Below are positions 4,347-50,720 of a stretch of 64,000 nt of DNA, one piece after another. The notes beneath the pieces are model-generated. The model was not told the DNA's origin. It saw only the letters and a program-made list of their open reading frames with translations, and did not search any database. The DNA is from Phytoseiulus persimilis (taxonomy: Eukaryota; Arthropoda; Arachnida; Mesostigmata; Phytoseiidae): contig CM075102.1 in the NCBI GenBank assembly GCA_037576195.1, positions 22,502,745 through 22,566,744 on the forward strand, given 5' to 3'. The stretch's first letter is position 1. Every line of letters begins with the position of its first letter. The position numbers and the translations under genes were made by a program.

Positions 4347-6094
4347 TCAGTTGGATGGCTCCATAGAGATCACGGATTCGAAGGAGTCATGATCAATGAA
4401 TTGATGCTCGATTTGCAACTCCCTCCGGATCTGATCCAACGCAGTGACTTCGAGAGTGTTCGAAGGATCCAGGAAATCTACGGCTGTTCCTCGGCGTCCG
4501 AATCTACCAGTCCGGCCCACACGATGATAGTAGGTTTCTAGGTCCGCTTGTCCGTCTTGAGTCAGAGGCAGATCGAAATTGATAACGAGAGTCACCTGCA
4601 AGATATCGATTCCTCGCGAGCAAACGTTTGTGGTGGTCAGAACTTTTTGAAGACCATTTCGAAAACCTTCGATGGCCGCGAGTCTCTCAGCCGGCGTGAG
4701 CTCGCCGTGTAAACTCGCAACGTTCTGTCCCAGGTCTCGCATTAACTTCGCGATTCGTGATGCAGAGGCTCTCGTTCTGCAGAATATTATGGCCTGGCCA
4801 ATGCTATGCATTTGATAGAGATTCGATATCGCCCTCAACTTCTCTTCCTCGTTACGCGTGTACATGTAGTAATGGCTTATATTGCCCAATGCGAGCTCCT
4901 CAGTTTGCAAAGTGATCTTCACGAAGGGTTCTCTGATGATCGCATCGGCCAGGGTGATGACGGAGGCGTCGAACGTGGCCGAGAACAGCAGCATCTGACA
5001 ATGATCTGCGTCCAGTCTTCGATGGATTTCAATACATGCAACATAATGCCCCCTCTCAGACATCATCACATCAGCCTCGTCGAGAACAAATACTCGAATC
5101 TTCTTGATGTCGAAGTGCTCCTGTCGGAGGGCCCAGTCGGCGAGTTTCCCTGGGGTTCCGATCACGACTTGTTCCTTCAGCTTCAGCTGTCGAGGGAGAA
5201 CCTCACCTGCAACAGCGACGATGAGAGTGGGCTCAAAGAATGATCATTTCCGTGAGGACAGATATGTGTGTTTGCCCACGTGGCGAAAATAAGATCCGCC
5301 GCTTGCTCGACGGATCAGTGTTTCCTATACCATCGTATCCACGACATCGATGTCACGAGAGCGTTGGAATCGGAGGCTGACTCAGGAACAAAAAAACAAC
5401 GGGGCCTACTGCACTCGTTCCGAATGCGAGATATCAAATTTCCCAACCCAGAAGCACTCGAGGGCAAGCGTTGAGCTTTTGCTCGGAGGTTTCCGGATCA
5501 CATAGGGAGGAGGGAATCTCGGGGAGAGCAGACGAAGCGCATCACGGAAAAGCGATCGCTGCACGAGTTATAGGAATAGCGTGGGAAACTGTTTATCGTT
5601 GAACGAACAAATAAAACTCATACTTTTCGAAACCACGTCGAAAAACCACGTGGTGGGTTCTCTCCAAACTCACCCCGTACGGCGTGACGGACTCCGATCC
5701 CTTGAGTGAATTGCAACATCTGACGACACTGAGAAGAGATTTGCTCCGAAAGCTCCAGAGTCGGCAAAATGATCAAGACCTGCGGCCATTTGTTTTCCGG
5801 CTTAACCCTGGTCAGAGCCGCGAGCAGAAACGCCGCAGTTTTCCCTGTTCCGGATTGAGACTGCGCCATCATGTTCGTCGGGGGGTTTTCCATTAGGAGT
5901 GGCAGGGCGGTCTCTTGGATTCGCGACGGGTGACTGAACCCCATTTTACAAATCGCTCGGTACAATGCGTCGTTCAAGCCCAGATGAGAAAAATCCGTCA
6001 ATGTCTGAATGGGTGAACAAACCGTTCCCGCGGATCGTTTCACATCGTAGGCCCCCGACTGCAGAGCGCTCCTTAACGTACGCACAGTATCCAT
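4347..6094 (-). CDS. ATP-dependent RNA helicase DDX19/Dbp5 (mRNA export)
   Basis: This is a DEAD-box RNA helicase of the Dbp5/DDX19/DDX25 group, which remodels mRNPs at the cytoplasmic face of the nuclear pore. Exons are 6094-5674 and 5206-4347, joined as GTACGG-G/gtgagt ... ttgcag/GTGAGG in phase 1, giving 426 residues. Motifs run in order: Q-motif region near 53-60 (GFSHPSRIQE), Walker A SGTGKT at 81-86, PTLELSEQ (motif Ia), GTPGKL at 157-162, DEAD at 183-186, SAT at 216-218, AIIFC, then TTNVCSRGID and HRVGRTGRFG. The phrases NPPTNMMAQSQSGTGKT and FVLDEADVM are specific to the DDX19 group rather than to other DEAD-box families. Start: ATG at 6094 is the first in frame. The frame stays open upstream to about 6200, so a short 5' exon joined at an acceptor near 6137 is possible, and family members usually have a somewhat longer N-terminus. 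Motif Ia is divergent from the usual PTRELA. Confidence 0.93.
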
Positions 6095-6199
6095 GCTGGT
6101 ATTGTATCGACCAAGGGAGCCGAGGGGATCCACACTGGAAGCACCTGAACGTGGAACACCAAAATATTTCCTCGTCGGCTTTTGGCTGCGTATGTCTCA

Positions 6200-39370: not shown

Positions 39371-39404
39371 TTCACTGGGTCAGCATCATGGTTTTGAAAA
39401 GTAA

Positions 39405-41285
39405 GGTTAGATTGGTCTCGTGATCACCTCTCCAGACTTGGGAAGTAGTGTTCAGATTGCTCCCGGAATCACCCCTCCAGACTTGGAAAGTAGTGTTCAG
39501 ATTGCTCCCGGAATCACCCCTCCAGAGTTGGAAAGTTATGGCCAGATTGGTCCCGGAATCACCCCTCCAGAGCTGGAAAGTAATGCTCAGATTGGTCCCG
39601 GAATCACCCCTCCAGGCTTGGGAAGTAGTGCTCAGACTGGTCCCGGAATCACCCCTCCAGAGTTGGAAAGTAATGGCCAGATTGGTCCCGGGATCACCCC
39701 TCCAGAATTGGAGAGTATTGGTCAGATTGGTCCCGGAATCACCCCTCCAGGCTTGGGAAGTAATGGTCAGATTGGTCTCGGAATCACCCCTCCAGAATTG
39801 GAGAGTAATGGTCAGATTGGTCCCGGAATCACCCCTCCAGAGTTGGAAAGTAATGGTCAGATTGGTCTGTGAATCACCCCTCCAATGTTGGAAAGTAATG
39901 GCCAGATTGGTCCCGGAATCACTCCTCCAGAGTTGGAAAGTAATGGCATGATTGGTCCCGGAATCACCCCTCCAGAATTGGAGAGTAATGGTCAGATTGG
40001 TCCCGGAATCACCCCTCCAGGCTTGGGAAGTAATGGTCAGATTGGTCCCGGAATCACCCCTCCAGAGTTGGAAAGTAATGGTCAGATTGGTCCCGGAATC
40101 ACCCCTCCAGAATTGGAGAGTAATGGCCAGATTGGTCCCGGAATCACCCCTCCAGAATTGGAGAGTAATGGTCAGATTGGTCCCGGAATCACCCCTCCAG
40201 GCTTGGGAAGTAATGGTCAGATTGGTCCCGGAATCACCCCTCCAGAGTTGGAAAGTAATGGTCAGATTGGTCCCGGAATCACCCCCCCAGGCTTGGGAAG
40301 TAATGGTCAGATTGGTCCCGGAATCACCCCTCCAGGCTTGGGAAGTAATGGTCAGATTGGTCTCGGAATCACCCCTCCAGAATTGGAGAGTAATGGTCAG
40401 ATTGGTCCCGGAATTACCCCTCCAGAGTTGGAAAGTAATGGTCAGACTGGTCCTGGAATCACCCCTCCAGAGTTGGAAAGTAATGGCCAGATTGGTCCTG
40501 GAATCACCCCTCCAGAGTTGGAAAGTAATGGCCAGATTGGTCCCGGAATCACCCCTCCAGAGTTGGAAAGTAATGGTCAGATTGGTCCCGGAATCACCCC
40601 TCCAGAATTGGAGAGTAATGGTCAGATTGGTCCCGGAATCACTCCTCCAGAGTTGGAAAGTAATGCTCAGATTGGTCCCGGAATCACCCCTCCAGAGTTG
40701 GAAAGTAATGGTCAGATTGGTCCCGGAATCACCCCTCCAGAGTTGGAAAGTAATGGCCAGATTGGTCCCGGAATCACCCCTCCAGAGTTGCAGAGTAATG
40801 GTCAGATTGGTCCCGGAATCACTCCTCCAGAGTTGGAAAGTAATGCTCAGATTGGTACCGGAATCACCTCTCCAGAATTGGAGAGTAATGGTCAGATTGG
40901 TCTCGGAATCACCCCTCCAGAATTGGAGAGTAATGCTCAGATTGGTACCGGAATCACCCCTCCAGAGTTGGAAAGTAATGGTCAGACTGGTCCCGGAATC
41001 ACCCCTCCAGAGTTGGAAAGTAATGGCCAGATTGGTCCCGGAATCACCCCTCCAGAGTTGGAAAGTAATGGTTAGACTGGTCCCGGAACCAACCCTCCGG
41101 GCTTGAAAAGTAATGGTCAGATCGGTTCCGGAATCACCCGTCCACGTTTTTAGAAGTATGGTCAGATTGGTTCCGGAATCACCCCTCCAGCTTTCGAAAA
41201 GTATAGTCAGACTCGTACCGGAATCACCTCTCCAGACTCGGGAGAGTATGTCCAGATTGGTCCCGGAATCACCCACATATGTTCC
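39405..41285 (+). repeat. 45-bp minisatellite array, about 41 copies
   Basis: The monomer runs GGAATCACCCCTCCAGAGTT, then GGAAAGTAATGGTCAGATTG, then GTCCC, which is 45 bases. The array is continuous from about 39405 to 41285, with the most diverged copies at both ends. Because 45 is a multiple of three, it holds long open frames in three registers. On plus these are GPGITPPELESNGQI (several hundred codons, broken by stops near 39870, 41074 and 41152) and RLVPESPLQSWKVMV. On minus it is WRGDSGTNLTITFQL, within an uninterrupted 634-codon frame from 41276 to 39372. Variant monomers are interspersed (GAATTGGAGAG and GGCTTGGGAAG versions). The array ends in a tail (GACAAACTGAC ... GACGAAGCCGAT ... 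TAGTAAGGAT, to about 41365) that recurs after the array at 44.43-44.77 kb. Confidence 0.97.
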
Positions 41286-43639: not shown

Positions 43640-43833
43640 AGGGGGTCAATCACCGACCATCTATTTCTTGGAGCGATTCCGGGACCAATCTGACCTTCAC
43701 TTTTCAAGTCTGGAGGGGTGATTCCGGGACCGATCTGACCATTACTTTCCGAGGCCTGGAGGGTGATTCCGGGACCGATCTGACCATTACTCCCCAAGTC
43801 TGGAGAGGTGACTCCGGGACTAGACATCATTTT
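43640..43833 (-). repeat. 45-bp satellite family, short array (minus orientation)
   Basis: About four diverged monomers of the 39.4-kb family occur in reverse orientation, for example GATTCCGGGACCGATCTGAC repeated with CCAAGTCTGGAG blocks. On the minus strand an ATGATG at 43833-43828 opens a 110-codon frame beginning MMSSPGVTSPDLGSNGQIGP, the same register as GPGITPPELESNGQI in the main array. The array ends at one arm of an inverted repeat. Confidence 0.88.
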
Positions 43834-43854
43834 ACGTAGTACGTCAAATGAATT
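43826..43854. repeat. Inverted-repeat arm, left
   Basis: AGACATCATTTTACGTAGTA followed by CGTCAAATG. Its reverse complement recurs at about 44858-44891 with a few extra bases (CATTTGACGTACTCCGTACT, then ACGGAAAATGATGTCT). The two arms are about 1 kb apart and each borders a satellite array. Confidence 0.75.
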
Positions 43855-43904
43855 CTCTTATAAGAATTCAAATGTACGGCAATAGTACGGCAAATGAATT
43901 CGGT

Positions 43905-44030
43905 TATATTCCGGGACCAATCTGAACATACTCTTCGGAGTCCGAATTGGTTAGTCCAGGATCGACCTGACCATACTTTTTAGACTCTGAGGAGGTAATT
44001 CCGGAGTCCATCTGACCATAACAGCACGTA
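43905..44030 (-). repeat. Highly diverged satellite monomers
   Basis: Three decayed units are recognisable by CCGGGACCAATCTGAACATA, GGATCGACCTGACCATAC and GAGTCCATCTGACCATAA, spaced close to 45 bases. They are the most degenerate members of the family in the window. Confidence 0.65.
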
Positions 44031-44429
44031 CCAATCAACCGAATGAGAAGATAGAATCAGAGAAAAGTGTCTCGTGAGCTGGTAGCCGGATAATATAACG
44101 ATCACAGTGGCCACATGTGTATTATGCGCTGGCGGTGAAACAAGTTGTGACCGTCTTCAAAACGTCCCTTTCTTCCGCTGCCCTAGCGTCCAAGGTGGAC
44201 TAAGCATCCAGCCCCCGCTCCCAGTTGTGTCCGAGTAAGTTCGTCTTCTTACTCCGTGAGTCGTAGCTCCTTCGTCACCCAGATCTTAAGAAGTCACCTA
44301 GTGCGAGCTTTGGCAGACAGCGGTAACCTTTGTTACAGTATTGTCAGAGAACAGAGGTATAGTCACAATACCGAACGGAGCGAGAATCAGGTATCGACTG
44401 CTCTCTGATCCAGCTTTCGGCTCTCCAAA

Positions 44430-44800
44430 CTCGGCAAAATATTGTCAGATTGGTCCTGGAATCAACCCACCAGACTCAGAAAAGTATGCTCAGATTGGTC
44501 CCAGAATCACTCCTCCAGACTCGGAAAAATATGCTCAGGCTGGTGCCGGAATCACTCCTCCAGACTCAGCAAAATGTTGTCATATGCGTCCTGGAATCAA
44601 CCCACCAGACTCAGAAAAGTATGCTCGGATTGGTCCCGGAATCACCCCTCCAGACTCGGAAGAATATTGTCGGATTAGCCCCAGAATCACCCGTACACAC
44701 TCGAAAAGTGAAGGTCAGATTGGTGCCGGAATCACCCCCATGTATTCCAGGAGGAACGAGGACAAACTGACAGACGAAGCCGATCATAAGTAGTAAGGAT
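44430..44800 (+). repeat. 45-bp satellite family, second plus-strand array with shared tail
   Basis: About seven diverged monomers (AATCACTCCTCCAGACTCGG, then AAAAATATGCTCAG, and so on). Read in the GPGITPP register they give GPRITPPDSEKYAQ-type units inside a 150-codon open frame, 44341-44793. The array ends CCGGAATCACCCCCATGTAT and then the tail GACAAACTGACAGACGAAGC, CGATCATAAGTAGTAAGGAT, which matches the tail after the main array. Confidence 0.9.
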
Positions 44801-44857
44801 CCTCGGGTCCGGGGAACGAAAAATGAATTTCCGTAACGGAGTGGTACGTAAATACAT

Positions 44858-44891
44858 TTGACGTACTCCGTACTACGGAAAATGATGTCTA
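44858..44891. repeat. Inverted-repeat arm, right
   Basis: This is the counterpart of the arm at 43826-43854. It ends AAAATGATGTCT and is immediately followed by minus-orientation satellite sequence, whereas the left arm's equivalent end is joined to the satellite read in the opposite sense. Confidence 0.7.
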
Positions 44892-45155
44892 TCCGGCACC
44901 AATCTGACCATTACTTCCCAAGTCTGGAGGGGTGATTCCGGGACCAATCTGACTTTCACATTTCGAGGCTGGAGGGGTGATTCCGGGACCGATCTCGTCA
45001 TTACTTTCCCAGGTCTAAGAGGCGATTCCGGGACCAATCTGACCATTACTCCCCAAGTCTGAAGGGGTGATTCCGGGACCGATCTGACCATTACTTTCCA
45101 AGTCTCGAGGGGTGATTCCGGCACCGATCTGAACATTACTTCACCTACGATCACT
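44892..45155 (-). repeat. 45-bp satellite family, minus-oriented array
   Basis: About six monomers read GGTGATTCCGGGACCAATCT followed by GAC(C/T) and TTCC(C/A)AAGTCT blocks. In the register that is open in the neighbouring arrays this one is interrupted by a stop, so it looks non-coding. Confidence 0.9.
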
Positions 45156-47070
45156 TCATTGTCATTGACCTATGACAAGACACCAAGATTCACCACATGA
45201 AATTCAACTTGAATTCAAATTTCCCTCGCTCCGGGAAAAATCTTAAAGGCCCCCCGCTGCGATTTTTTCGTTCCCATTTTTTCGTTCCACTCCCAGTTAC
45301 AACCCAGTAAACACGCCCGAAGAGAAGCGCATTTCTGCGCTAAAAAAAAAATCATCAGAATCTTCAACGCGAAACAGCGTTAGAATCCGAGTCTTGCCGG
45401 CAGCATATAAGGATTGATCAGAGTAGTTCAACCGCAATGTCAGTTCATTATATGGAATCCGAGCATCGAATTCCCGAATGGTATTCTCAGACTCGGTCAA
45501 AAATGTTGCATCAACCGGAGTAATGATCCGATTCACCTCAGACAAGATCCTAGTTACCTGGGTTATTCCAACGGAGAGGATCGAGGGATTAGATTTTCGG
45601 TTCGAATAATCGGTTGATCCGATTGTCCGACTCTTCGATCGACAGGGGCTCACTTCAAAGACGCTTTTCGTTCAACAACCTCAACTGACAGCTCCACAGC
45701 TGAGTGATTCTGGCATAGTTCGTCCGTATACCGAGCTCCCGACATGGATTGATGGAGGTTGAAACATGACTGATACCTAAACTTTTAGGCTGTCGGAACG
45801 ACTCTGCCTGCGATCGCCCAGCTCCCCTGCTGAGGAGAAAGAGTCCTACGAAAGCAACGAGATCGGAATTCGCGACGAATACGGTCAGAGTGATATTCAT
45901 GAAAGATAATGCTAGGCGAGACTGAGCTTGAACTGAAGAGGAAAAAAGTACCTAAGCGTTTGGTGAAGCCATCCCGGGCGAGCTCATAGGTGCTATCGAG
46001 GTGAGAGAGAAGGACACACGCTTGAGATAATAAAAAAACGAGAGCAGAGTGGGAAAATATTGAAATCCTCTGATACCCGATGTGTACCCGAAAAGCTTCG
46101 ACTCCAGGAACGATTTCCGCATGAAATGAGACGACAGAGTGGGTATGGGGAGGTCCATTTCCACGCCTACCTCAGCCAGGGTTCCTGGCATCGATAACTA
46201 TCACCATTCCCTCATGGCTTCCCACATTTATGATTGTTAGAGAGGAAATTCGTCTTCAGTGGCACACTAGCTAGAGGGCTCCGTGCACAGGCAGATTCAC
46301 CTCGCGGACACTGATACGGTAGCAAGGAGAAGACAGTACGGCGTATAGATGAACAGTAGTTCATTCGGGTGTGGAGTATGGTTATATGGGATGTGATTGG
46401 GAGAGTGAGAGTTGTTGAGTTGAGTCTTCGGGGAGTACTTCGAGGGTGTTAGTAATTACGGCACTAAGCCGGGGTTCTAAGGTTTTCTGATGAAAGGATT
46501 GATTACTTTGGCGCCTTGAGTGGCGTGGGTTCTAGTACGAACCGAGTCTGCTGAATCTAGATTCGGATGCATCCGCTTTCGCGTGTTGCATCTCAACAAT
46601 GATGATAATTGTTTGGTGGACCATAATGTGCGCTAAGAGCTTCTCGAAGGGGCTCCGGAAAAACACGATCAAGCAGAGTCGCCACATAAGCCACGACCTC
46701 GATTGGGACCCGATTCATCATGCTGACCCCTGGTGGTGCCCGATCGTACCTACTGCTCTGAGGGGTCCTTTGAGCAGCCCGCCACTACGGGGGCGCCCTC
46801 TAGAGGACTGTCTCTCGATCCACAGAAGGAGACTACTCCGCGATATGATTTGTTTAAAGCAATGCAAGCAGGCTGAGGACCCTCTACACGGAACGTGAGA
46901 GAGGAGATGTTTCGCTGATTGGCGCTCGAAGCGACGCTCACTTTTATCGTGACTGGACTAACTGGCGGTATTCACTATAAAACATTCGTTCGCGACATTT
47001 CCCCATGACAAAACTGGGACAATCTCAGTTCTGATCAGCTGATAGAGACGCGCATACCGTAGTGGGGAAC
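45156..47070. other. Unassigned; two minus-strand frames of possible interest
   Basis: A minus ATG at 45900 opens 81 codons with a hydrophobic start (MNITLTVFVANSDLVAFVGL, FLLS) and lies just after a ttcctcttcag acceptor, so it could be a small secreted protein. A longer minus frame (45653-45297: PVDATFLTESENTIREFDAR, ARIPYNELTLRLNYSDQSLY) follows, but I could not splice the two in phase. No family is recognisable. The promoter of the cystine-knot gene should lie at the right end. Confidence 0.3.
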
Positions 47071-48033
47071 ATGGCGCGGGTTTACATCTTCGCAATGCTG
47101 AGGTTAGTAGGAACAGCTCCAGCCTGATCAGAAGAACACCGGGAGTTTCATCTCGAAGCTCTGCGAGGACTGTTTTTCATTCGGGAATCTCCACATACAG
47201 ATCCCCGATTCGGCAGCCATCGGGGAAGAGAACAACCACCCCTCGGGGAAGCACTGCGGCCTTAGATCCAACCAGGGTTGATAACTAACGATACTTGACT
47301 GCAGTACATAGGCTATCCCATAGTTCGCTTTCGTTTTCTTCATGGTGAAGGGTCGCTTCAAACTCTCTTTTCCGAGATCACTCATTCTCCTGGAAGCTCA
47401 AAATTACGTTCTTTTCTTCACCAGTTTGTTGTTGTCAGCTCACATGATGGATTTCGTTGAACGTGAGTACCAACCTTTGATTCATCTTCTGCGGATCGAG
47501 AGGCCGGTCTTTCCTTAACGGCCATCGATCTTGAGTGGATATATTGTCCTCTTTTCGTACTCCGGCCTCACTCATCTGGGAACCTAGCATCGCTTTCAGC
47601 GTGCCGAGTCAAAATGCTCCCGGGTCATGGAACAAGACGCTACTTTCGGATGCAAATTAACGGTGAGCGATGCTTCAATCCGGACGCCGTTGTTGGAGTG
47701 TCGGAATGCCATGGAGGCTGTGAATCAACATCAATGTACACTCCAGGTGAGAGGCAGATTTCAAGGCGATCTCCGCGAACCCTTTGGCAAAACGGGTTGC
47801 TGGAAGGTGTGCTATGGACGCTTACAATGCGTTGTACTCTTGCAGGCAATTCAACAATCGATCGCCGATGCAGTTGTTGCATCCCAACTGGGAAACCGAA
47901 TAAGATCGAGGTGGTGATCGAATGCCCGTCTGGTGCGACTTTCAAGCGATTCATGCTCGTTCCTTCAGACTGTGTCTGTGACCCATGTGAAACTCTGACT
48001 AATATCAATGCTGACATACCGATTCCGAAGTGA
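47071..48033 (+). CDS. Small secreted cystine-knot (CTCK-type) protein, bursicon/norrin-like
   Basis: Likely a secreted signalling or structural protein with a C-terminal cystine-knot fold. Four exons: 47071-47102, 47425-47462, 47600-47746, 47846-48033. All junctions have GT-AG sites and consistent phase (2, 1, 1), giving 134 residues. A signal peptide occupies about residues 1-16 (MARVYIFAMLSLLLSA). The rest is one domain with 11 cysteines at 25, 48, 60, 64, 81, 83, 84, 99, 115, 117 and 120. These include C-x-G-G-C (ECHGGC), C-x-C-C (CSCC) and the final C-x-C-x2-C (CVCDPC), the pattern shared by bursicon subunits, norrin and mucin/VWF C-terminal knots. One N-glycosylation site, NST, is at 74-76. 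Sequence between cysteines does not closely resemble bursicon alpha or beta as I know them, and the spacing of cysteines 2 and 3 is longer, so I call the superfamily only. An alternative start within the second exon's frame (ATG 47342) would give a poorer signal sequence. Confidence 0.8.
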
Positions 48034-48290
48034 GACTCCTGCTGCCTCACAAAAAGTTGTACATTGTGAAGAGAGGTCGAGTCGTAGCGTTGAGAAAGCA
48101 TTCCCGAGACTCGGAATGATTGCTCATCAACAATGTGAAGGATATCTCATATCGAGTCCGGGACCTGTCGCATGAGTGACCTCCCTCTGCTCATGCATGC
48201 AGATCCCTGTCAAGCTTTGCTCCGAAGTAATACTCCGATAGCCCTGAGAGGGAATTCATCGTCTTCGATGTATCCTGGTTGTGTTATAAG

Positions 48291-48396
48291 TAGAGCCTGG
48301 AAGGTGATTTTTCGAAATTATCCCCTCGTCGCAATGCATCGATGCCGGGCGATTGATCGGATAATTTCGAAAATTCACCTAAACTTCCAGGCTCTA
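48291..48396. mobile_element. hAT-like MITE copy B (106 bp) with perfect 8-bp target-site duplication
   Basis: Terminal inverted repeats TAGAGCCTGGAAG and CTTCCAGGCTCTA extend as a near-palindrome through TTTTCGAAATTATC. The element is flanked on both sides by GTTATAAG (48283-48290 and 48397-48404), which fits the hAT target consensus nTnnnnAn. The TAGAG terminus fits YARNG. It is homologous to copy A in inverted orientation. It lies about 260 bases past the cystine-knot stop and may sit in that gene's 3' UTR. Confidence 0.93.
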
Positions 48397-48404
48397 GTTA
48401 TAAG

Positions 48405-50720
48405 TTCCCAGCCGAGCACATTGATCGTCAGCCGCAGGTCGACGCACAGTTTGCATACAAGGGACCGCCCGTTGTCTGCTTAATACTGCGGACGAGAGTG
48501 AGGGTGAATCGAGTGCCCCAAAATAATTCTTGCCATCAGTAATCGATACAACGCAACTATATTTGTGAGATAATTGCGACTTGCGCTAGTTTCAAGTAGA
48601 TCGATTGTGTTTGTGCCGATATCCCGCGACGATCCACACTGACTGAGCTCGTCGGAATAAAATATGGAATTTTCCAACGCGCCATTTGGAGCATTGCTTG
48701 ATTCGCTACATGTTTTATCAGAATCTCAGGAATTGCAGGAGGCCGTCTATTCGTAGCATCCAGCGTCGATTCTCCCATCGAGCCAGAAGCGATTGGACGG
48801 ATTTTCGATCGAAGCCGGGGTTCAGTACACAGCCGGAATCGAGGGAGACTCTCTTATCTCACGTACAATCGTCAGATAACAGTATCACGTATCAGACTAC
48901 GGCGGGAGAGAGCTTTGTCGCAGCTTCAGGCTCTTCGGGAACGAAAAGTTCCTTATACGCGGGGCTTCGAGACGGTTTCACCCCGTTCGATCGGTTCAGT
49001 CGCAGACAACGCTTTCTGCCGATGGAATCTCCCGCATTCGAAATATTTTACATTATCTGACGGTTAGCGCTCCAATCTAGAACAAATCTTCATCCTGCTC
49101 TCCGAAACAGAGGTCGATGACCTATACGCATGGGCGCTGCCCGATGTGGAGTTCTCTCTCCGGAGCGATAGCGCATGTTTTCGAATGCACCACTCGCCAG
49201 CAATCACCTGTCACCCATGATCATCTTTTGCGCGAGTCTTGGATTCTGAGCTGTTCCACAGTGCTACTGAGGTTGTGACGTTGCAATCCCGTTGGGTCCT
49301 CGAAAGGTCCTCCATCGTTGTGGTAACGTTGATTGGAACAACCCCCGCAGTGGATCGAGAATTGGAGGGTACAGAAGAAGTCCACGAATGGAAGCGTATG
49401 GAGGGGCCTGAGTCGCCGGGCGGTCCGCCGCAGTTATGAGCATTAGGGCTCAAGGGGCAATCGGATCAGCGGCGTACCCAGATATTCTTTGGGGTGGGGG
49501 CGGCAAGGGATGTGATACTGATCATCATCATCGTCGCCAGCTTTCCATGACGCAATCAACCCAGTTTTCAAACCTCTTAGGATATTCCTGATGAGACGAA
49601 ATCTTTTGGGGTAACTTTAATACATCAAAGTAGAATACAATCCACCCTTCCCAGTATGATCGAAGAGATTTTGGGGAGGGGCATGGGCCCCGTGGAGAAC
49701 ACGCATCAAGTTCAATATGTCGTAGCCTTTTTCTCCCGTGGCACCCCGCTCCCGTTCTCCTTCGCAACCCACCGACTCGCTTGCATAGAGCTCAGCTTAA
49801 CATGTTAGATTGCAGTCGAGCTTCGACGGCCCATGTAGACCTGGTTGAGGATCACTGATCTATTATACATAGAGCTTCCCATTAGGGCTTCGGTATCGTG
49901 TTTCTTCGTGAAGGAAAGCAGTTGATTTTCTTCAAAACATGGCACGACTCTCCCATCTGAGTGTGAATATCTCCCGTTCCCCATCGGAGATGCCGGAGTT
50001 GAGAAGAGGAAGGGACCAAGGCCTCGATACTCATTTAGAGCATCAGAAAAATGCTTCGCCGCTGGAACAGCCTGAAGCGTGCGGTACATGGACGGAAGTT
50101 GAGAACACATCATTCCTCCATCGAACGATGTCTACTCCGTATTCAGTTTCCTCGCAAGACTTGGAATCCAGGGAGAGATATAGAATCCACCTTCCGAGAA
50201 AGCGACGAGAGGATCGGATGACAGAGAGGAGAAGTCCCCTGATTCGCGGGTGCCCGACGTGAGAGGCCAAGAGGGGCAAGATATCAGGCGAAAAATTCAC
50301 CGCTACAGATCATTGGATATCCATTCGCACGATTCTTATAATGAGAAAACCGTCGGAGTGCACCAGTCGAAGAGCTCCCGCTTCGATACACTAGTCGGAT
50401 GAGGCTGAAAGAGTGGAGTATCCTGCAGATGCGTCGCCTCGGGTGGTCGGAGACAATGGAAGTAGTTACTCGAGGGTGCAATCAGAATGTTTGCGACGAT
50501 AAGAAGATCCTCCATCGATAATCGCCGGAACAGCAATGCTCCGAATGGCAATGCTGGCATAGCCGGGGAGGGAAAGAGGTCAAACCACACTGGATGGTGA
50601 GTCTCGTTGAGCTTTCGGGCGGACCTGACCAGCTCTCGGTGATTTCATCCACTGAGATGCTCGATTCGTTCCTGGTGATTGTCGATATGAAGAGATACGT
50701 TTGTGACAATAAATTGAATA
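48405..50720. other. No gene recognised
   Basis: Short open frames on both strands, none with a recognisable domain. AATAAA at 48656-48661 (plus) could end a long 3' UTR of the cystine-knot gene. The right end is the 3' flank of the bHLH gene. Confidence 0.4.

Follow-up and report, generated by a model that had tools for sequence, protein, structure and literature searches.

The window, a 64,000-nt stretch of the Phytoseiulus persimilis genome, contains a small four-exon gene that we consider likely to encode a hemolectin/von Willebrand factor (VWF)-type C-terminal cystine knot (CTCK) which was freed from a long protein, duplicated, and is secreted as a disulfide-linked dimer. The gene structure, the knot family, the cysteine set and the paralogs could be read from the DNA itself, and each is described below together with the comparisons that support it. 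The window lies on C2, the 52.0-Mb member of the four contigs (54.7, 52.0, 38.9 and 28.1 Mb) that hold most of the genome (181 Mb, 127 contigs).

The gene is located on the + strand, and its exons of 32, 38, 147 and 188 nt sum to 405 nt in frame, corresponding to 134 codons and a stop, with GT-AG ends at all three introns (phases 2, 1 and 1); this agrees with the sequence-only reading, which had described a four-exon gene of 134 residues with consistent phases. Exon 1 (47071..47102) carries the ATG and the first part of the signal peptide in 10 codons plus 2 nt. In the joined translation, exon 2 (47425..47462) supplies the remaining signal peptide and a short linker, exon 3 (47600..47746) the first half of the knot with C25, C48, C60 and C64, and exon 4 (47846..48033) the sequon NST at residue 74, C81-x-C83-C84, C99, C115-x-C117-x2-C120, the tail and the stop. 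Intron 1 spans 47103..47424 (322 nt, phase 2), intron 2 (47463..47599, 137 nt, phase 1) lies immediately 5’ of the knot, and intron 3 (47747..47845, 99 nt, phase 1) is in frame and free of stops. A TATAAAA at 46976..46982 (+), with 88 bases from there to the ATG, may be the core promoter, and an AATAAA at 48656..48661 (+), the sole AATAAA or ATTAAA from the stop to position 49200, may be the poly(A) signal. Directly 3’ of the gene, at 48284-48403, there are two nested inverted repeats, which may form a hairpin or be what is left of a small mobile element. Elsewhere in the window, on the - strand, we noted the remains of a copia-type LTR element at 911-2080 (gag PF14223, E 3.4e-7, with an integrase match under the cut-off) and a DEAD-box helicase gene of at least two frames at 4350-6196.

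The encoded protein has eleven cysteines (residues 25, 48, 60, 64, 81, 83, 84, 99, 115, 117 and 120), among which the motifs C-x-G-G-C, C-x-C-C and C-x-C-x2-C were all located, and Pfam Cys_knot matched it with 28 bits (cut-off 24, E 2.8e-6), so that the full cysteine set first noticed from the sequence alone was borne out. A hydrophobic run at about residues 4-16 resembles a signal peptide, as judged by eye; a cut after residue 16 would leave a mature chain of 13.1 kDa. The single N-glycosylation sequon, N74, is common to a paralog on C3 (N73). In-frame stops precede the ATG by 12 codons in the window gene and by 13 codons in the C3 copy, which is itself a complete short frame. The signal-peptide-like start, the stop before the ATG and the complete paralog together uphold the earlier view of a secreted, stand-alone protein with a single knot.

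The C3 paralog (C3:14,088,084-14,088,521, - strand) is an intronless and intact frame of 146 residues with no internal stop, 53% identical to the window protein over residues 1-121 of the latter (E 1.7e-37), and starts at the methionine that matches the start of the window protein. It reads straight through the positions of all three introns, which supports exon joins 2 and 3 well. Since intron 3 is in frame and stop-free and could be read through, the absence of the corresponding insert from the C3 paralog counts most at that join. The evidence for join 1, within the signal peptide, is weaker: the two sequences differ much there and align weakly over exon 1, with lengths one residue apart and common ends (M-x-R-V-Y and F-V-E/D-P-C). 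Over 98 ungapped codons, the window gene and the C3 copy are identical at 71%, 76% and 47% of first, second and third positions, respectively, and dN/dS was 0.15 (NG86) or 0.34 (YN00) with dS near saturation. The pair is thus under purifying selection, averaged over its two members. At the level of sequence, these comparisons confirmed the gene model as that of a real gene beyond chance. The C3 copy differs in its C-terminal tail and no longer has C117, one of the predicted knot cysteines; going by norrin, C117 of the window protein would pair with C64.

Searching the genome with the window protein gave seven matches, namely two stretches of the gene, the C3 copy, C2 at 16.89 Mb, C2 at 1.45 Mb and two weak matches (E 0.98 and 2.8) that we rejected as family members because the frames listed held no knot. 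Searches from the C3 and C2 paralogs recovered the same set plus one weak match each (C4:5.345M, E 0.85; C2:33.33M, E 9.9), and a weak Cys_knot match at C2:18.45M (E 5.2) was not accepted as a member either. These protein searches ignore introns and may miss short exons, and the family count is therefore a lower bound. As the genome contains a hemolectin-like tail knot and two or more stand-alone paralogs of the gene, the label “orphan” that had been given to it is not supported. Identity among the paralogs of this one genome is about 32-53%, and the C3 and C2 paralogs score 23.3 and 16.4 bits with Pfam Cys_knot, both under the cut-off of 24. Of the contigs outside animals that were searched, the bacterial and archaeal ones gave 32 pattern-matching stretches and the viral ones seven, none of which was confirmed as a relative; for an animal gene, this outcome is no surprise.

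The second paralog, on the - strand of C2 at about 16.8935-16.8940 Mb (E 7.1e-7), is in our view the most interesting feature of the family. It keeps eight of the eleven cysteines and has Ala, Leu and Ile in place of C81, C83 and C120, and its alignment with the window protein is ungapped across C64-C84 and C115-C120. A random loss of three cysteines out of eleven would hit exactly this set with a chance of 1/165 by arithmetic. An acceptor at the same place and phase (1) as intron 2 of the window gene lies just 5’ of its knot; a search for its 5’ exons, including a signal-peptide exon, gave no convincing candidate.

The three cysteines missing from the C2 paralog are those that, by alignment and spacing, match the inter-chain cysteines of norrin. 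In the norrin dimer, Cys93-Cys95, Cys95-Cys93 and Cys131-Cys131 bridges link the two chains, each of which has four further disulfides of its own (PMC4497409). The window protein, having C81, C83 and C120, should by analogy form a covalent dimer through its C-x-C motif and last cysteine, and the C2 protein, lacking exactly the equivalents of these residues, would be expected to stay monomeric or to associate only weakly. The inter-chain bridges of norrin and the window protein are probably alike. Norrin, 133 residues long, is likewise a stand-alone secreted knot with the same eleven cysteine types, the first of which lay outside the fragment that we compared. The two differ in the gap between C64 and C81 (16 residues in the window protein against 23) and in a low pair score given below, and it is VWF rather than norrin that scores better with the window protein.

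The nearest long-protein relative in the genome is at C2 about 1.450-1.463 Mb, where a knot (E 2.3e-5) closes a run of cysteine-rich frames on the same strand. Pfam searches of 10 of the 29 frames in this run gave TIL in four, C8 in three (one under the cut-off, in a frame whose VWD match was likewise too low), CBM_14 with Mucin2_WxxW in one, and nothing at E 0.01 in two. In our reading, the cysteine-rich frames make up a single gene of the hemolectin or gel-forming mucin kind, its unity being suggested by their order and strand. Its tail knot has the same eleven cysteines as the window protein with near-equal gaps (21,11,3,15,1,0,13,15,1,2 against 22,11,3,16,1,0,14,15,1,2) and 34% identity over 98 columns, and in both genes a phase-1 intron lies immediately 5’ of the knot. 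They differ in that the hemolectin-like knot follows TIL, C8, VWD (weak), WxxW and chitin-binding frames and has its inner intron elsewhere. The stop before the ATG and the complete short paralog indicate that the window gene would have no VWD-C8-TIL series upstream of the knot in the same protein.

Comparison with solved structures pointed in the same direction. The window protein alone matched the VWF knot (PDB 4nt5 and 9qrv) at E 1.2e-6 and no other knot up to E 10, with cysteine gaps that differ by at most one residue in the part compared, and a profile of four relatives reached VWF at E 5.3e-11, norrin at 4.6e-4, gremlin-1 at 1.5e-3 and bursicon at 8.7e-3. The window protein shows the CTCK pattern of the VWF/hemolectin type, that is, C-x-G-x-C, C-x-C-C and C-x-C with matching spacing. 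VWF is a very large plasma protein and has its last cysteine placed differently. BLASTP scores against the window protein were 62.8 bits for the C2 paralog, 48.1 for the hemolectin tail, 28.5 for bursicon alpha and 23.9 for bursicon beta. In a shuffle test, in which one partner was shuffled 300 times with its cysteines fixed and VWF, norrin and gremlin-2 were represented by fragments, the window protein gave z values of 26.2 with the C3 paralog, 21.1 with the C2 paralog, 8.0 with hemolectin and 7.9 with VWF, followed by bursicon alpha and the mite gremlin-like knot (4.2 each), bursicon beta and gremlin-2 (3.1 each), gremlin-1 (2.3) and norrin (2.0; 14 of the 300 shuffles scored as high). The window protein is thus nearer to the VWF/hemolectin knots than to the other knots compared. 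The picture is less sharp for its relatives, and this lowers our confidence slightly: with the C2 paralog, norrin (z 6.7) and gremlin-1 (5.9) both outscored VWF (5.2), and with the hemolectin knot itself gremlin-2 (8.4) came out about level with VWF (8.1). Pfam did not divide the groups sharply either: the knot of hemolectin exceeded the cut-offs of DAN and Cys_knot alike, bursicon alpha that of DAN, and bursicon beta none. In a tree of eleven short domains, one of the eight inner branches, that of the gremlins, was supported, and constraining the family with the VWF-type knots, bursicon or norrin gave p-AU values of 0.481, 0.375 and 0.259, so that none of these placements was rejected.

Two neighboring genes on C4, at about 17.0446-17.0481 Mb, are in our reading bursicon alpha and beta; they are on opposite strands, with their matched stretches 1.4 kb apart. 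The alpha gene (17.0464-17.0481 Mb, +) was identified by its likeness to bursicon alpha sequence, by a DAN match (24.9 bits; 27.4 bits joined) and by its place beside beta, and the beta gene (17.0446-17.0450 Mb, -) by a bursicon beta query (E 1.1e-11 and 2.4e-9), and both names are presumptive. Against solved structures, gremlins and DAN were listed for alpha and bursicon was absent, and beta gave a weak match (E 0.064) to a chain from a bursicon entry and nothing in Pfam. The beta query had other weak matches at C3:33.69M (E 0.08) and C3:8.78M (E 0.13). A gremlin/DAN-like knot gene (DAN 84.3 bits, 295-codon open frame) was found at C2:41.114 Mb (-). In the alpha, beta and gremlin-like genes, the first cysteine lies in one open frame with the stretch that precedes it.

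The window gene is neither of the two genes read as bursicon, and the proposal that it is a bursicon subunit or paralog seems to us barely credible. It has eleven cysteines and the three motifs (C-x-G-x-C, C-x-C-C and C-x-C-x2-C) in common with both subunits, and the tree leaves such a kinship at p-AU 0.375; against this stand the alpha and beta genes already read side by side on C4 and differences in sequence, pair scores, intron positions and cysteine spacing (13,9,3,17,1,0,13,17,1,2 in bursicon alpha). The sequence-only reading had seen little likeness to bursicon, and these differences bear it out. We give just as little credence to the idea, also raised there, of a larger mucin or hemolectin gene with the four exons as its C-terminal tail. 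The domain type is indeed that of mucin and VWF tails, and a repeat of 45 bp, or 15 codons, forms an array 6-8 kb upstream (39394-41274); however, the in-frame stop 12 codons 5’ of the ATG and the intronless paralog, complete from the matching methionine, make a longer protein improbable, and the array was ruled out as a mucin repeat region because it is a dispersed repeat. A 507-base piece of it had 251 genome matches, of which those listed fell on contigs C1 to C4 and on both strands. This 45-bp minisatellite occupies 39394-41274 and 43675-45141, with 41.8 copies in the main array, and is open in several frames; a codon-position test, a weak one, gave observed/expected N:S of 0.79 in the best + frame and 0.80 to 2.16 in the others.

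More weight attaches to a true signaling ligand, that is, a dimeric hormone-like knot that would, like bursicon and norrin, bind a receptor of the LGR or Frizzled type, although we regard this as unlikely. A stand-alone build with the full eleven-cysteine set is the anatomy of norrin; the four-relative profile reaches norrin, the C2 paralog scores well with it, and the eleven-domain tree does not reject kinship with norrin or bursicon. The window protein itself is nevertheless nearer to the hemolectin/VWF knots than to either, and the paralogs, about 32-53% identical and losing cysteines, have changed faster than expected for a conserved hormone. Two identities had first been suggested, an undescribed ligand and a short mucin-type knot. 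The sequence agrees better with the latter, since the closest kin found are hemolectin/VWF knots, although the tree does not decide the matter. Another candidate role is that of a hemolectin partner or regulator, which would use its inter-chain cysteines to pair with the tail knot of hemolectin and so cap or tune hemolectin dimers. In its favor, the two knots of one genome have eleven cysteines and near-equal spacing in common; CTCK knots studied so far are mostly homodimers, and we consider this role rather improbable. At longer odds still, a hemolectin tail knot cut loose may have become a norrin-like ligand of the mite lineage, whose sister lost exactly the three inter-chain cysteines, giving a two-armed ligand and a one-armed competitor at the same receptor.

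Returning to the hemolectin/VWF-type knot as a freed and dimeric secreted protein, we propose the following for its origin, secretion, disulfide pairing, dimer and role. A tail-knot exon would have moved behind a signal-peptide exon, and the resulting stand-alone gene would then have been duplicated; the placing of a phase-1 intron directly before the knot, common to the window gene and the hemolectin-like gene and matched by the acceptor of the C2 paralog, fits such an exon movement but is no proof of it. Intra-chain disulfides C25-C84, C48-C99, C60-C115 and C64-C117 would build the knot, C81 and C83 would pair crosswise with those of a second chain, and C120 would pair with C120. The product would be a head-to-tail dimer of about 2 x 13 kDa, linked covalently and probably carrying a glycan at N74, which would be released into an extracellular fluid such as hemolymph, saliva, reproductive fluid or mucus and may act there as a scaffold or binding protein. 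A protein of extracellular fluids or secretions is favored by the sequences because the paralog identity of about 32-53%, the intronless copy and the cysteine losses amount to fast change for a hormone; conserved hormones are expected to change more slowly.

A single secreted CTCK knot with eleven cysteines is a build already seen in norrin, and hemolectin and VWF contain knots of this domain type. Among the open-licence papers listed, none described a stand-alone VWF-type knot in mites in its title or the beginning of its abstract. Here, what appears to be the tail knot of a clotting or mucus protein has been turned into a family of small secreted proteins within one genome. The family is also a warning that eleven-cysteine knots in arthropod genomes should not be taken as bursicon by default. 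If expressed, it would provide a natural test of how covalent dimerization matters for CTCK proteins.
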